DNA from: a virus | Direction: 5' to 3' (one strand) | Length of the DNA: 23,670 nucleotides | IMG/VR virus record: IMGVR_UViG_3300009167_000032 | Location: 1-23,670 of that record | Shown here: piece after piece, positions 11,173 through 20,174 of the stretch | How positions within the stretch are numbered: position 1 is the stretch's first letter | How the letters are laid out: each line of letters opens with the position of its first letter | Notes under the pieces: generated by a model | What the model was told of the DNA's origin: nothing | The model's input: the letters and a program-made list of their open reading frames with translations, nothing else | Databases searched by the model: none | Position numbers and translations under genes: made by a program

Positions 11173-12078
11173 TTACTTCTTCCAGTCCAGCAGGGCGAGG
11201 AACTCCGCCCGGGTCGCCGGATTCTCCCGGAACCTGCCCCGCAGGTCTGATGTCACCATCTCTCCTTGATTCTTGATCCCCCGCAGTTCCTTGCAGAGAT
11301 GCCGGCCCCGCAGCACCAGCGCGATCCCCAGCGGCTGAATCGACGCCTCGAGGTCGTCCACGATCTCCTTCACCAGCCGTTCCTGTATCTGCAGTTTCGC
11401 CGCGCGCCACTCCACCAGCCGGGCCACCTTCGACAGCCCGATCAATTTTCCCGCCGGGGCGGGGATGTAGGCGAAATAGTAGTCCCCGAAAAACGGCAGC
11501 ATGTGATGCTCGCAGAACGAATAGAACCTTCCCCGATCGGAGATCATCGAGTCATACGACACGCCGTCCTTCCCGTTCGGGAACGCCGTCAGCCGGGGAG
11601 CGGCGTCGCCATACCCCCGAAAGATCTCCCGGTACATCTGCGCGACCCGCTTCGGGGTGTCCGCCAGCCCTTCCCGGTTCGGGTCCTCGCCGATCGCCGA
11701 CAGCATCCGGGTCACGTTGTCCTCGATCGTCTCCTCCTTGCGCTCCCACGGAAAATGAATCCAGTCGGCCGTCTCGTGGACATGGTAATGGGCCCGCGCC
11801 GAGGCGTGCGGCTTCGAGTACAGGGCCGCCGTCACGTACTTCTTCAGGAACGGCTCGATCGTCCTTCCCGAATCCACGATGTCGTCGACGATCAGGGTGC
11901 TGCGGCCCGGTTCGTCGTGAACAGGGAGACGCAGTCGATGCGCCACCTCGAGGGCGACGTACCCTCCACCCCGGGGAATGCCCCAGACTCCGGTGAACCG
12001 ATGCCTCTTCTTCCCCATGAACTTCCCCGCCAACGCCGCGCAGTCCTTCCTGAACTGCTCCCACGTCACATCCTTCAT
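11173..12078 (-). CDS. folE: Gpt-like phosphoribosyltransferase fused to GTP cyclohydrolase I
   Basis: This 301-residue fusion has two enzyme domains. Residues 1-112 resemble E. coli Gpt. VTWEQFRKDCAALAGKF matches its N terminus in style, VWGIPRGGGYVA is the first active-site loop, and LIVDDIVDSGRT (62-73) is the PRPP-binding loop with D65 and D66. ADWIHFPWE (104-112) matches the base-binding tail of Gpt (DTWIEQPWD). Residues 117-301 are GTP cyclohydrolase I. FCEHHMLPF supplies zinc ligands C189 and H192 and catalytic H191, RHLC supplies H260 and ligand C262, and RGIKNQGEMVTSDLRG follows. The FolE part makes dihydroneopterin triphosphate, the first step to preQ0; the Gpt part should convert guanine or xanthine plus PRPP to the nucleotide. 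ATG 12078 overlaps the queE stop as ATGA. Confidence 0.92.
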   Translation of the reverse strand: MKDVTWEQFRKDCAALAGKFMGKKRHRFTGVWGIPRGGGYVALEVAHRLRLPVHDEPGRSTLIVDDIVDSGRTIEPFLKKYVTAALYSKPHASARAHYHVHETADWIHFPWERKEETIEDNVTRMLSAIGEDPNREGLADTPKRVAQMYREIFRGYGDAAPRLTAFPNGKDGVSYDSMISDRGRFYSFCEHHMLPFFGDYYFAYIPAPAGKLIGLSKVARLVEWRAAKLQIQERLVKEIVDDLEASIQPLGIALVLRGRHLCKELRGIKNQGEMVTSDLRGRFRENPATRAEFLALLDWKK

Positions 12079-12800
12079 CTTCCGCGCACCCCTTCCCAGA
12101 GTTCGACATGAAGCCGGGGCGACAGCCGGTACCCCTGCCGCTTGCACACTTCCGCGAGAGCCTGCATTCGCCGCACCCGCTCCGCTCCCCGCACATCCTC
12201 CCCGGTCCGGGGCATGAGTATGATCCGGGAGACGGGGATGCCGTACTTCCGCTCCAGTTCCCTGATCCTCACCATGTCCGTCCGGGGATCGTCCACCACG
12301 AACTTGAAGTACGCCTTCCCGTTGCGGAGGAACGCCATGATCGCGTCGGGGATCTCCGTCTCCACCCGGTTCTTCGCGTTCCCGATCTTGATGCAGACAT
12401 TGAATTGATCGATGGCCGCCGTCAGGGTCGGCGCCGGAGGGATCGTCCCATTCGTCTCCACCTCGACGAATATCTTCTTGCGCTTCAATTCCCGGGCGAG
12501 GTGTGCCACCACTCCCGCCTGCAGCAGCGGCTCCCCACCGGTGACGACGACGTGCTTCGCCGGGAACTTCTCCACCTCGTCCACCATCTTCAGGACCGAC
12601 ACCTTCTTCGTATCGTTCCAGACCTTCCACGCGTACGTGCTGTCGCACCACGCGCAACGAAGATTGCAGCCCGACAGGCGAATGAACACCGCGGGGACAC
12701 CGAGGTGAATCCCCTCGCCTTGCAGGGAGTAGAAGACCTCCGAGACCCTCAGTACGACAGGGTCACGAGGTTCGACTGGTCGCCCTTGAATCCCTCCCAC
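12075..12800 (-). CDS. queE: 7-carboxy-7-deazaguanine synthase QueE
   Basis: This radical-SAM enzyme converts 6-carboxytetrahydropterin to 7-carboxy-7-deazaguanine. The [4Fe-4S] motif is CNLRCAWC (CX3CX2C, C45, C49 and C52 from the GTG start). The family opening VSEVFYSLQGEG precedes it, and TGGEPLLQ and VEVETNGTIPP follow. The start is unclear. GTG 12800 has a GGGGGTGA-like site and gives 241 residues, but overlaps queD by 52 bases. The conserved family sequence begins only at a CTG at 12752, which overlaps the queD stop. A CTG start would give 225 residues, nearer the usual family length. The frame has no ATG close to either. The stop overlaps the gpt-folE start. Confidence 0.9.
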   Translation of the reverse strand: MGGIQGRPVEPRDPVVLRVSEVFYSLQGEGIHLGVPAVFIRLSGCNLRCAWCDSTYAWKVWNDTKKVSVLKMVDEVEKFPAKHVVVTGGEPLLQAGVVAHLARELKRKKIFVEVETNGTIPPAPTLTAAIDQFNVCIKIGNAKNRVETEIPDAIMAFLRNGKAYFKFVVDDPRTDMVRIRELERKYGIPVSRIILMPRTGEDVRGAERVRRMQALAEVCKRQGYRLSPRLHVELWEGVRGR

Positions 12801-13144
12801 ACCCTCACCCCCACCACGAACGTCCCGGCCGGTAGAATTTCTTGAACTTCCTGCCAGAGCAGGGTCGCGAAGTTCTCCGCCGTCGTCGGCCTCGACTCGT
12901 AGTTCTTCACCTTCTTGAACTCGTCGTTCAGGTATCGATGATCGAACCGCCGCAGGACTTCCTTCACCCGACCGAAGTCCACGACGATGTCCTCCATCTC
13001 GATCCCGCCACGACCTTCCGCCTCGATGTCCATCTCGACCTTGTAGGTATGGCCATGCAGATTGCAGCACTTCTTCGTCGTCAGCCACGGCATGTCCGGC
13101 AATTGATGCGCGCACTCCAAGAAATCCACCACCGTCACCATCAT
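12749..13144 (-). CDS. queD: 6-carboxy-5,6,7,8-tetrahydropterin synthase QueD
   Basis: This 131-residue enzyme turns dihydroneopterin triphosphate into 6-carboxytetrahydropterin. Zinc ligands are H13 in ECAHQL and H30 and H32 in CCNLHGHTY; the catalytic cysteine is C26 or C27 just before. FDHRYLND (D69, H70) and VWEG (E117) complete the active site, and PTTAENFATLLW is a family hallmark. Length is typical. I use ATG 13144; GGAGGTGAG lies upstream, and a GTG at 13150 has even better spacing and would add two residues. A farther ATG at 13189 would overlap queC and has no ribosome site. It sits four to ten bases downstream of queC. Confidence 0.93.
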   Translation of the reverse strand: MMVTVVDFLECAHQLPDMPWLTTKKCCNLHGHTYKVEMDIEAEGRGGIEMEDIVVDFGRVKEVLRRFDHRYLNDEFKKVKNYESRPTTAENFATLLWQEVQEILPAGTFVVGVRVWEGFKGDQSNLVTLSY

Positions 13145-13154
13145 CTTCACGACC

Positions 13155-13841
13155 TCACCTCCCGCCGTCCTCGACTCCCGCTTCCGCAAACGCCGCCGCC
13201 CGGGAGATACACGTCGGACAGGTTCCGCAAGGAGCGGGCCCGCCGGCGTAGCACGACCACGTCAAGGCGAACGGCAACTTCATCGACGCCCCCTTCCGAA
13301 CGACATCCGCCTTCGTCATCCACGCCAGCGGGGTCACCAGCCGGACCTTATGATAGGTCCCGACGTAGATCGCGTTCGCCATCGCCCCGAGAAACTCCGG
13401 GGTGCAGTCCGGGTATGCCCAGTTTCTCGCATCCTCCGCGTGCATCCCCGCGTAGATGTACCCGACCTGATGCCGCAGGGCCAGCGCAGCCGCGACCGAC
13501 AGCAGGTTCCCGTTCCTGAACGGAACGTATGTCGGGGAGACACCGAACGACTCCTGCAGTTCCTCGTAGGTCATCTTCGGCAGCGGCGCATCCGGGTCGG
13601 TCAGGGTCGATCCCTGCCCCCGGAAGATTCCCGGGTCCAGCGTCACCACCTCGTGCGGGACCCCGTAATAGGTCGACACATCCTTCGCCGCTCCTACCTC
13701 GCGTTCATGTTTCTGACCGTACGACAGGGAAAGGGCCCGCACATTCTCTTCGCCGAACGCCCCGACGGCGATGGCCAGACAGACCGAGGAGTCAAGACCT
13801 CCCGACAACAGCACCAGCGCGCGTTTCTTTTGTGGCTGCAC
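13155..13841 (-). CDS. queC: 7-cyano-7-deazaguanine (preQ0) synthase QueC
   Basis: This 228-residue enzyme uses ATP and ammonia to convert 7-carboxy-7-deazaguanine to preQ0. The PP-loop ATP site is SGGLDSS at residues 13-19, and VPFRNGNLLS (106-115) is a family motif. The zinc cluster C197, C205, C208 and C211 sits in SCYAGGPAPCGTCPTC. The start is GTG 13841 with a perfect AGGAGG six bases upstream. The gene overlaps the preceding HNH gene by 50 bases. There is no fused glutamine amidotransferase domain, so the product should be preQ0 itself rather than an amidine precursor. Confidence 0.94.
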   Translation of the reverse strand: MQPQKKRALVLLSGGLDSSVCLAIAVGAFGEENVRALSLSYGQKHEREVGAAKDVSTYYGVPHEVVTLDPGIFRGQGSTLTDPDAPLPKMTYEELQESFGVSPTYVPFRNGNLLSVAAALALRHQVGYIYAGMHAEDARNWAYPDCTPEFLGAMANAIYVGTYHKVRLVTPLAWMTKADVVRKGASMKLPFALTWSCYAGGPAPCGTCPTCISRAAAFAEAGVEDGGR

Positions 13842-14233: not shown

Positions 14234-14274
14234 AAAAAAAAACGCCCCGGAGGGGGCGAATCCCCCGGGGCGTT
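14234..14274 (-). terminator. Strong intrinsic terminator
   Basis: On the minus strand a 10-bp stem AACGCCCCGG/CCGGGGCGTT continues with three more G-C pairs past a bulged base and is followed by nine Ts. It is a textbook Rho-independent terminator for leftward transcripts, and separates the early region from the modification operon. Confidence 0.92.
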
Positions 14275-14371: not shown

Positions 14372-14937
14372 TCCTTTCCTTGCCGATCTCCTCCGGTCCT
14401 CTACTTTCCACGCCGCTCCTGCCAATCCCTTCCCTTCCGATACGCTCCCTTCTTCACCGCTCCCCTCCCTTCCTTTCCTGCCGGTCCACTCCAGTCGTGT
14501 CCCCTCGTATCCAGTCTTCGCCACTCCTGCCTTGCCTCTCCGTACTACTCGCCTCCATTCCATTCCCCTCCTGCCTTGCCCTTCCACTCCGGTCGTCGCC
14601 GGTCTACTCCGGTCCGATCCCCTCTCTTCCGGTCCATTCCCTTCCTGCCGATCCTATCCCTGCCGGTGCATTCCTTTCCGATCCGCTCCTGCCCCGCCCC
14701 TCCCGTCCTATCCCTTCCACTCCGATCCCGTCCGATCCGCTCCGCTCCTGCCCTGCCTTTCCGGGCCAGTCGCCTCCGTTCCATTCTGCTCCATGCCGAT
14801 CCCATCCTGTCCTGCCGATCCGGTCCATTCGTCTCCGGTCCCTTCCAATTCCCTCCGATCCAATCCGCTCCTGCCTTTCCAATCCGCTCCGGTCGATTCC
14901 CCTCTCCGCCATTCCGATCCGTTCCTATTCTGTTGCC
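14372..14937 (-). repeat. Degenerate pentamer array with regular phase shifts
   Basis: About 566 bases are built from TCCNN units (NNGGA on the transcribed strand), roughly 113 copies with the second and third positions nearly invariant. Nine TCCTGCC motifs, at 14417, 14476, 14525, 14569, 14643, 14687, 14746, 14810 and 14869, each contain one 4-base unit (TCCT). All eight spacings (59, 49, 44, 74, 44, 59, 64, 59) equal 5k+4, so the lattice is kept exactly between phase shifts. Several frames on both strands stay open over it only because the unit rarely makes stops; I see no ribosome-site support for any. It starts right after the stop of the 162-residue gene and ends just before the small-RNA promoter. 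Confidence 0.88.
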
Positions 14938-18400: not shown

Positions 18401-19270
18401 TCACTTCTCCTTCGGTTCTGCGTACCCCTTCTTCTTGAGCCAGTTCTTCGCCACTTCCGCGCCCCGGGCCCCCTGCTCGGTCATCCTCCCTTGCATCTCT
18501 CCGGGCGGTGAATTCAGGTACCCCTCGAACTTCGTTCCGAACAGGGTCTGCGGCCGGAGGTAGTCCATCATCTTCGGATCATCCTTCCACTTCGCGACTT
18601 GATGATCGATCACCTTCTTGAAATCATCGAAGGTGAATCCCTGCTTCATCCTCGTCCTGATCAATCGCAGGGTCTCCGGGGTCGTCGCCCGGTACTTCTT
18701 CTCCGCCTTCTCATTCAGGTACGCGACGATCGAATACACGACGGTGACACCTGAAGAGGCCCCCGCACCATTCGAGGGGTCGGGCTTGCCCGACAGAAGA
18801 TCTTCTACCCCTTCCCCTTCCCCATTCCCCATTCCCAATTCCCCATTCTCCATTCCCTTCCCCATTCCCCTTCCCTCGCGGCTGTCACCGGTACTTAACG
18901 GTGGGGTAACGGGTAAGGAACCGTGTTCCATCGGGGGAAGGACGGATTCCCTCTCGGTATGATGCGGCTTCTGATGCTTCTTGAAGTTCAGAATTTGTAT
19001 GTAGCGGCGGCCACTTACTTCATACCGGACGATGAACGGCTCCTGCGTGATCGGCTTCTTCTCCAGCAGGGGAGAGAGGACTTGTTTCTCGAAATCGATG
19101 TCGTCGTATGGAAAGATCTTGACCTTCAGATACTCCGGCCGGTCCTCCAGCCGTCCTTCCCGGTCTGCGTAGCACCACAGCCCGGCGAACCCGATCCTTG
19201 TCTCGAACGAGAACCGACAGAGGTCCTCATCATCGAAGAAGTCAGGTTTCAGGTATCTGATCCTCGGCAT
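18401..19270 (-). CDS. Replisome organiser / replication initiation protein
   Basis: This 289-residue protein has two domains. Residues 1-105 (RIRYLKPDFFDDEDLCRFSF, FAGLWCYADREGRLEDRP, YIQILNFKKHQKPHH) form the winged-helix domain found in phage replisome organisers, which bind the origin. Residues 175-255 (VVYSIVAYLNEKAEKKYRA, RMKQGFTFDDFKKVIDHQV, LRPQTLFGTKFEGYLN) match the conserved phage C-terminal domain (Phg_2220_C type) that contacts helicase or its loader. Between them, residues 132-155 are a Gly/Met/Glu low-complexity linker encoded by a purine-rich hexamer repeat, possibly the origin. The ATG at 19270 has a GAGGGG ribosome site that can be masked by an upstream RNA structure. Confidence 0.88.
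   Translation of the reverse strand: MPRIRYLKPDFFDDEDLCRFSFETRIGFAGLWCYADREGRLEDRPEYLKVKIFPYDDIDFEKQVLSPLLEKKPITQEPFIVRYEVSGRRYIQILNFKKHQKPHHTERESVLPPMEHGSLPVTPPLSTGDSREGRGMGKGMENGELGMGNGEGEGVEDLLSGKPDPSNGAGASSGVTVVYSIVAYLNEKAEKKYRATTPETLRLIRTRMKQGFTFDDFKKVIDHQVAKWKDDPKMMDYLRPQTLFGTKFEGYLNSPPGEMQGRMTEQGARGAEVAKNWLKKKGYAEPKEK
18809..18874 (-). repeat. Purine-rich hexamer repeat inside the organiser gene
   Basis: About eleven imperfect hexamers of the type GGGAAT/GGGGAA encode the linker GMGKGMENGELGMGNGEGEG. In several phages the origin repeats lie inside the initiator gene, as with the lambda O gene, so this tract could be the origin or an unwinding element. It may simply be a slippage-prone linker. 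Confidence 0.6.
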
Positions 19271-19276
19271 CGCCCG

Positions 19277-19378
19277 TGCACCCCTCCCCTCCGAGCAAAA
19301 GAATGGCCCCGCAGGGTCGAGAGGGGTGCAGCCCTATCGACGACGTCGCCGGAGCGACGCCACGGTCCTGCGGGGCCA
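19277..19378 (-). promoter_or_regulatory. Three-way-junction RNA that can mask the organiser ribosome site
   Basis: P1 is a perfect 12-bp stem TGGCCCCGCAGG/CCTGCGGGGCCA (19304-19315 with 19367-19378). P2 pairs 19316-19320 with 19337-19341 and 19322-19325 with 19332-19335. P3 is a 6-bp hairpin CGTCGC/GCGACG (19344-19349 with 19354-19359). One strand of P2 (19319-19330) is also complementary over 12 bases, one G-U, to the ribosome-site region 19277-19288. P2 and masking exclude each other. P1 is followed on the minus strand by TTCTTTT, so it may also act as a terminator. Confidence 0.65.
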
Positions 19379-19460
19379 AGATTGTTGTGAGGCATCGACT
19401 CTGCACCGTCCATGAAAAAGAATGATCTATCCTATCGGAAAAAAGAAAACCGATCCAGTC

Positions 19461-20174
19461 TCATCTTCCCGTGCGCCTGACCGACCTCTCCTTCCAGACC
19501 CTCACGCCCGGCCAGTTCATCTTGTCCTTCAGGGTATTGACGAACGTGCGGACCACATTCGGCTTGAAGTCCAGAACCGTCAGGGGGATGTTACTCGCCG
19601 GGTCCGCGACCGCCGCGACGAACTGCGGGAAGTCGTACACCTCGAACTTCCAGACATCGACTACCGTCATGCCTTCCATCTCGGACTTCACCGTCGGCAG
19701 CGCGACCGCCGACAGGGGGACATCCACGGGCTGTTGTATGATCTGCTCCGCCAGCCGATCCATCCCCTTCTTCTCCGCCATCTCCGCGAGTCGAAGTTTC
19801 CGATCCTCCTCCTCCTTCTGCGCGATCTGCCGGGCGGCGATCTCCTCCTTCTTCCGACGGTCCTCCTCCTCCACGACATACCTGTTCATCGACTTCCGCA
19901 GGAACTCCTTCGCCGCCGCCAGCGGGGCCAGCAGTTTCCGCTTCTCTTCGGTCAGGGCCCGATGCGCCTGAAACGCCCGCTGTATATGCGGGTCAAGGAA
20001 CTCGCCGATCTTCTTCTCCCGGTCGGTGATCTCGAGGAACATCCGGTTCGCGCTCTCAAGATCCCCCCGGGACTTCACCACGACCGACTCCGCGACCTTG
20101 CAGACTTCCGCCACCACTCCCTCCGCCGCCTTCACCTGCTCTGGCGTCAGGACCTCCACTTCGTTCTCCGCCAT
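19461..20174 (-). CDS. Coiled-coil phage protein next to RecT, 237 aa
   Basis: The start at ATG 20174 is set by GGAGGGAAGGC. An in-frame ATG 21 bases upstream has no ribosome site. The middle (residues 60-140) is a long charged helix: FLDPHIQRAFQAHRALTEEK, then EEEDRRKKEEIAARQIAQKE. The C-terminal part is a compact domain with MTVVDVWKFEVYDFPQFVAA and DFKPNVVRTFVNTLKDKMNW. Proteins with this layout often sit beside recombination genes in phages and may be associated with the annealase, but their function is not known to me. It is 17 bases downstream of the exonuclease gene. Confidence 0.75.
   Translation of the reverse strand: MAENEVEVLTPEQVKAAEGVVAEVCKVAESVVVKSRGDLESANRMFLEITDREKKIGEFLDPHIQRAFQAHRALTEEKRKLLAPLAAAKEFLRKSMNRYVVEEEDRRKKEEIAARQIAQKEEEDRKLRLAEMAEKKGMDRLAEQIIQQPVDVPLSAVALPTVKSEMEGMTVVDVWKFEVYDFPQFVAAVADPASNIPLTVLDFKPNVVRTFVNTLKDKMNWPGVRVWKERSVRRTGR

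Follow-up and report, generated by a model that had tools for sequence, protein, structure and literature searches.

The gene for the replisome organiser of the phage studied here is preceded by a 190-nt non-coding leader that may well be a structured 5′ translational operator or attenuator, masking the ribosome site of that gene. Modelling of the competing folds indicates that the masking would probably take the form of a pseudoknot in which P1, the long helix that closes the structure, is kept. To our knowledge, few systems have been described in which a phage controls its replisome-assembling protein after transcription. The window, i.e. the whole stretch of DNA that we analysed, is a viral contig of 23,670 nt (positions 1-23,670 of IMG/VR record IMGVR_UViG_3300009167_000032). 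It has a GC content of 62%, and the minus strand is the coding strand for all its recognised genes. Overall, the sequences of two phages make the element a well-supported candidate regulatory leader.

The organiser gene and its leader

The replication initiation protein, or replisome organiser, is encoded at 18401..19270 (minus strand), with an ATG start codon at 19270. It matches PF09524 (E 6.6e-28) and TIGR02220 (E 4.8e-27) as well as several PHROG families of replication initiation proteins, among them phrog_16167 (E 7.5e-41) and phrog_428. M1 and an N-terminal R-x-R-x-x-K-P block are invariant among its homologues, and because these proteins begin with the same block, the ATG at 19270 is certain; the masked site is therefore the true ribosome site. 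With both the identity of the gene and its start codon secure, the preliminary description of this DNA was right in placing the element before the gene that starts phage replication. Inside the organiser gene, ~10 tandem 7-bp units (GGGAATG on the coding strand; 18808-18875) correspond to the linker between the two domains of the protein. This array is iteron-like and, by analogy with lambda O, is a candidate replication origin.

The upstream neighbour of the organiser gene codes for a coiled-coil protein and ends at 19461, and the ORF map leaves 19271..19460 (minus strand) as the non-coding leader. No sigma-70-like promoter was found within these 190 nt. We gathered ~260 homologous organiser loci, 208 of them distinct. 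In most homologues the organiser gene starts a few nt after the preceding gene, without a leader, although leader lengths are approximate, since chance ORFs in GC-rich sequence blur them and the repeat analysis with longer ORFs may mistake short genes for leaders. Compared with these loci, the 190-nt gap of the window uncouples the organiser gene from upstream translation. We rejected a 54-aa ORF at 19413-19249, which overlaps the leader, as a candidate leader peptide, because the leader of the related phage L004 (see below) has no similar ORF.

All the elements of the preliminary description were found in place on the minus strand. The fold and an inverted-repeat search both identified P1, whose 5′ arm UGGCCCCGCAGG (19378-19367) and 3′ arm CCUGCGGGGCCA (19315-19304) form 12 perfect pairs; no other perfect inverted repeat in the window is as long. 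P1 encloses 51 nt that hold two hairpins in the minimum free energy (MFE) fold, which agrees with the 12-bp P1 closing a junction with two further helices that had been proposed. The first inner hairpin (19342..19361) has 8 bp and a UCCG loop. The second one (19316..19341), which is the third arm of the junction and had been called P2, consists of 5+4 bp with one mismatch and a 6-nt loop. The junction is nearly all stacked, with a 5-nt bulge only.

Part of the loop and the 3′ side of the second hairpin make up the anti-ribosome-site strand UGCACCCCUCUC (19330-19319). Its partner is the ribosome-site strand GGGAGGGGUGCA (19288-19277), which overlaps the purine-rich Shine-Dalgarno region GGAGGGGAGGGG (19292-19281). 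The 12-base complementarity reported earlier between P2 and the ribosome site thus exists, as 11 Watson-Crick pairs and one G-U pair, and it is inflated by the palindrome GUGCAC and by the GC-richness of the leader. Directly after P1 comes ATTCTTTT, as described before, within a T-rich tract, UUCUUUUG (19296..19303), that resembles a weak terminator tail. The RNA 3′ of the junction reads AUUCUUUU-GCUC-GGAGGGGAGGGGUGCACGGGCG-AUG. An imperfect direct repeat, CATTCTTTT..GGTGCA....CGATGCC, flanks the junction, with its 5′ copy at 19391..19424 and its 3′ copy over the ribosome site and the start codon (19266..19305, both on the minus strand); 30 of 1000 shuffled sequences scored as high (p ~0.03).

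We next consider how unusual this structure is. The 75-nt element has an MFE of -54.6 kcal/mol, compared with a mean of -32.9 (sd 3.3) for shuffled sequences (z -6.5), none of which, out of 1000, was as stable. It also lies below all 9438 sampled 75-nt windows from both strands of the contig. The length of P1 is unremarkable by itself, since 14 of 60 shuffles of the window have an arm of at least 12 bp. The combination of a P1 of 11 bp or more with an anti-site strand of eight or more Watson-Crick pairs inside its loop was found in 3 of 1000 shuffles of the window leader. We applied the same descriptor to 360 distinct real leaders of 100-300 nt from the fetched loci; only the window leader and that of L253 matched it.

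Additional features were observed elsewhere in the window. Genes for QueC, QueD, QueE and FolE lie at 11180-13841, and with them the phage can make 7-deazaguanine precursors, the probable use of which is DNA modification. A textbook intrinsic terminator, AACGCCCCGGGGG..CCCTCCGGGGCGTT followed by a T run, is found at 14241-14274 (minus strand). The region 14380-14935, upstream of an HNH gene, consists of ~550 nt of purine-rich, imperfectly repetitive and apparently non-coding DNA. Its repeats, 15-59-nt units around ggaacggatcgg, represent the strongest self-similarity of the window.

Leaders of related phages

Only one other phage with the same local gene order was found, L004. Both encode, in this order, RecT, a PD-DExK-like nuclease and a coiled-coil protein, followed by the leader and the organiser gene. 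The coiled-coil proteins of the two phages are 25% identical, and their organisers 62% over the N-terminal region. The L004 leader, of 116 nt, has an 11-bp P1 (CCCCGGGUAAC/GUUGCCCGGGG) and next a 9-bp hairpin, and a strand inside P1, ACCUCCUU, is perfectly complementary to the ribosome site AAGGAGGU. One feature expected of anti-Shine-Dalgarno leaders, a strand complementary to the true ribosome site, is therefore present in both phages (over 12 nt in the window and 8 nt in L004). Two of 1000 shuffles of the L004 leader matched the strict descriptor. After P1 comes GAAAAAAGG, an A-run, and the T-tract is missing.

The layout of the L004 leader is built from sequence unrelated to the window leader, and comparison of the two revealed no conserved junction or core nucleotides beyond what GC-rich stems give. 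The preliminary description had regarded loss of the pairing in related phages as an argument against it; in L004 the pairing is kept, in a wholly different sequence. L004 is the one relative that supports the element, at the level of architecture only. In the organiser tree, L004 does not group with the window phage, and the neighbours of the window organiser have no recognisable leader of this kind. The leader may travel with the upstream module, or it may have arisen twice. A phage close to the window phage in this tree, L335, has a tRNA-Thr gene (anticodon TGT; 1293-1370) shortly upstream of its organiser gene.

L214 suggests a possible third case: its leader combines an 11-bp P1 with two hairpins, and the loop sequence CUCCCUA is the complement of UAGGGAG at the ribosome site. 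L180, with an organiser 60% identical to that of the window over the N-terminal region, carries a 188-nt leader with a long P1. It was rejected as a further case, as it does not match the descriptor and its anti-site match is weak (ACCCUU with AAGGGU). Scans with the L004 and L180 organisers, clade-specific alignments and searches of GTDB yielded more homologues, none of them a close relative with a leader of the window type. Similarly, no distant organiser homologue has kept a clearly recognisable version of the leader, no relative of the element was detected at the DNA level in phages or in 30 related viral contigs, and the exact motif of the element has no match in IMG/VR. Two contigs of the same species, L010 and L011 (terminase 100% identical), do not include the replication region.

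Other types of structure were observed before organiser genes. The leader of L276 (~1354-1500) contains two competing helices, one of them a GC-rich hairpin followed by CUAUUUUUUU, and looks like a transcription attenuator. In L277 and L195, branched three-way hairpins with closing stems of 14-19 bp followed by U-runs are located ~140-160 nt before the organiser gene; judging from their sequences, these are branched terminators.

Competing folds and alternative explanations

We computed the energies of the open and masked states. If only nested folds are allowed, the anti-site helix of the window forms at the expense of P1, and the refolded RNA is 0.4-9 kcal/mol less stable than the one with P1 intact (0.4 for the shortest transcript, 2.6-9 for longer ones); the nested masked state of L004 is disfavoured by about 6.5-9 kcal/mol. 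A pseudoknot in which P1 and the first hairpin are kept and the third arm masks the site has an energy of -70.4 or -67.8 kcal/mol in the window, at a penalty of 7.0 or 9.6, respectively, which is about equal to that of the unrestricted nested ensemble (-67.1 kcal/mol). The corresponding values for L004 are -49.8 or -47.2, compared with -47.8 kcal/mol. In either phage, the two states thus differ by ~3 kcal/mol or less. These pseudoknot energies were computed by hand with crude, assumed penalties, and they therefore say only that the exchange is plausible. Of the two ways of weighing the states, the nested one favours the P1 state, and near-equality holds if the pseudoknot keeps P1. The earlier proposal that P2 formation and masking exclude each other can be made more specific: under the assumed penalties, the relevant pair of states is the arm versus the masking helix, with P1 kept in both.

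The leader might then work as follows. In the nascent RNA, P1 and both inner hairpins would fold before the ribosome site emerges. The 3′ strand of the second arm could then leave its hairpin and pair with the ribosome site over 12 bp, forming the pseudoknot while P1 stays closed, and ribosomes would be kept from loading. The amount of organiser and, in turn, the timing or the strength of the start of replication would depend on the balance between these two folds. That balance could be biased by the organiser protein itself, by another phage or host RNA-binding protein, or by ribosome traffic. In-cell folding, translational repression by masking and the identity of the effector are what we infer.

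A different reading is that the element is an intrinsic terminator or attenuator, in which the GC-rich 12-bp P1 and ATTCTTTT stop some transcripts short of the replication genes and antitermination allows read-through as at lambda tR1, the inner arms being a mere branched loop. The very stable stem with a T-rich tract next to it fits such a role, as do the hairpins with T-runs found just before the organiser gene in the homologues L276, L277, L195, L338 and L168. However, the T-tract is short and interrupted, the branched loop is far larger than the 3-8 nt of a compact hairpin, and a consensus scan assigns the T-tail not to P1 but to another stem of 5 bp, at the rate found in shuffled sequences. 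In addition, L004 has the same layout with an A-run in place of the T-tract, and the anti-ribosome-site strand is left unexplained. The transcriptional option that had been raised earlier is thus feasible in the window and lacks its T-tract in L004. Because this tract is needed for a terminator, we favour translational control and consider termination rather unlikely.

As for the original interpretation of the element, its core stands: a cis-regulatory leader acting on translation agrees with a layout that is non-random and recurs in L004, while its reading as a riboswitch in the strict sense has no Rfam match behind it. On a more speculative note, which we consider somewhat less probable than termination, the two leaders could represent a class of phage RNA switches defined by architecture (a long P1, a hairpin, an anti-site arm and masking by a pseudoknot) that gates translation of the organiser and times replication. 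The effector of such a class might be the organiser, binding autogenously, or a metabolite, e.g. a 7-deazaguanine precursor made by the phage. If the window leader does control translation of the organiser, with or without such a class, phages would have a second, structurally different way to meter the start of replication. It would also mean that the layout of a leader can persist while its whole sequence is replaced, and that sequence-based RNA searches miss such cases.

Intergenic RNase III sites occur in the operons of T7 and lambda, and the coaxial P1 and first hairpin (~20 bp) might likewise be cut by this enzyme, or might protect the 5′ end of the organiser message. The length and stability of the duplex are appropriate, but processing or mRNA stability does not predict the anti-site complementarity of either the window or L004, and we find such a role unlikely.

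At the DNA level, the inverted repeats, together with the direct repeat around them, could be binding sites for the initiator or part of an origin. Replication origins are commonly found in or near initiator genes; the element adjoins one, and the direct repeat has some statistical support (see above). Nevertheless, the iteron-like array within the organiser gene is a stronger candidate for the origin and makes an origin role of the leader less likely. Moreover, the element is GC-rich rather than AT-rich, and its L004 counterpart does not share the sequence expected for the binding sites of a related initiator. We thus regard this explanation as very unlikely.

The element could also be a product of chance, a GC-rich hairpin between two genes whose complementarity to a G-rich ribosome site is accidental, its resemblance to L004 being a coincidence. 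C-rich strands readily complement purine-rich ribosome sites, and three-way junctions are not enriched in the leaders of the family (3 of 13, compared with 1.6 expected). We nonetheless give chance even less credence, given the z value of the fold and a joint probability of ~0.003 for each of the two leaders, which come from phages that share their gene order.

Finally, a true riboswitch, whose junction would bind a small molecule that chooses between the open and the masked ribosome site, appears highly improbable: the three-way junction with its expression platform, the nearly balanced energies and a conceivable ligand, the 7-deazaguanine precursors made by the QueC, QueD, QueE and FolE enzymes, would suit it, but the leader shows no evident aptamer core, stacking takes up nearly the whole junction, and the junction nucleotides are not conserved between the window and L004. 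Rfam 15 gave no match at gathering thresholds in the window, only unrelated sub-threshold ones in a permissive search of 19180-19500, and no riboswitch match in the L004 leader. The label 'riboswitch' in its strict sense is unsupported, because there is neither a conserved core nor an Rfam family.

Comparison with known regulatory systems

Terminators of the lambda tR1 type consist of a GC-rich stem and a T-rich tract, located between the early genes and a replication gene. The window leader resembles tR1 in its GC-rich stem, its T-rich tract and its position before a replication gene. In contrast with tR1, it has a branched loop, an imperfect T-tract (none in L004) and an anti-ribosome-site strand.

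The window leader has the general plan of translational riboswitches and anti-Shine-Dalgarno switches: arms closed by a P1, and a strand with two alternative uses, as part of an arm or as a cover for the ribosome site. Unlike the riboswitches, the leader has no conserved aptamer core, no Rfam family and no known ligand, and its sequence is fully replaced in L004.

The masked initiation regions of T4, including that of gene e (PMC3014915), are similar to the window in that an intramolecular helix covers a phage ribosome site. In the gene e type, an upstream inhibitory strand is relieved by transcription from a later promoter (PMC3014915), whereas in the window a stable junction provides the masking strand with a competing partner.

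The pseudoknot in the gene 32 leader of T4, T2 and RB69 mediates autogenous translational repression of a single-stranded DNA-binding replication protein (PMC3014915). It was described as possibly the sole viral pseudoknot involved in translational autoregulation (PMC3014915, 2010), and it is reported to be absent from RB49 (PMC3014915). Like the window leader, it is thus found in some relatives and absent from others. Both leaders are structured, possibly as a pseudoknot in the case of the window, lie upstream of a phage replication gene and are placed for the control of translation initiation. The gene 32 pseudoknot is a site of protein nucleation ~67 nt upstream, without ribosome-site pairing of its own (PMC3014915). 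In contrast, the window leader is a three-way junction with no known binding protein, and a strand of one of its arms directly complements the ribosome site. Among these systems, the gene 32 pseudoknot of the T4 type appears to be the closest working analogue, and by this analogy autogenous control by the organiser would be the first candidate for the effector.
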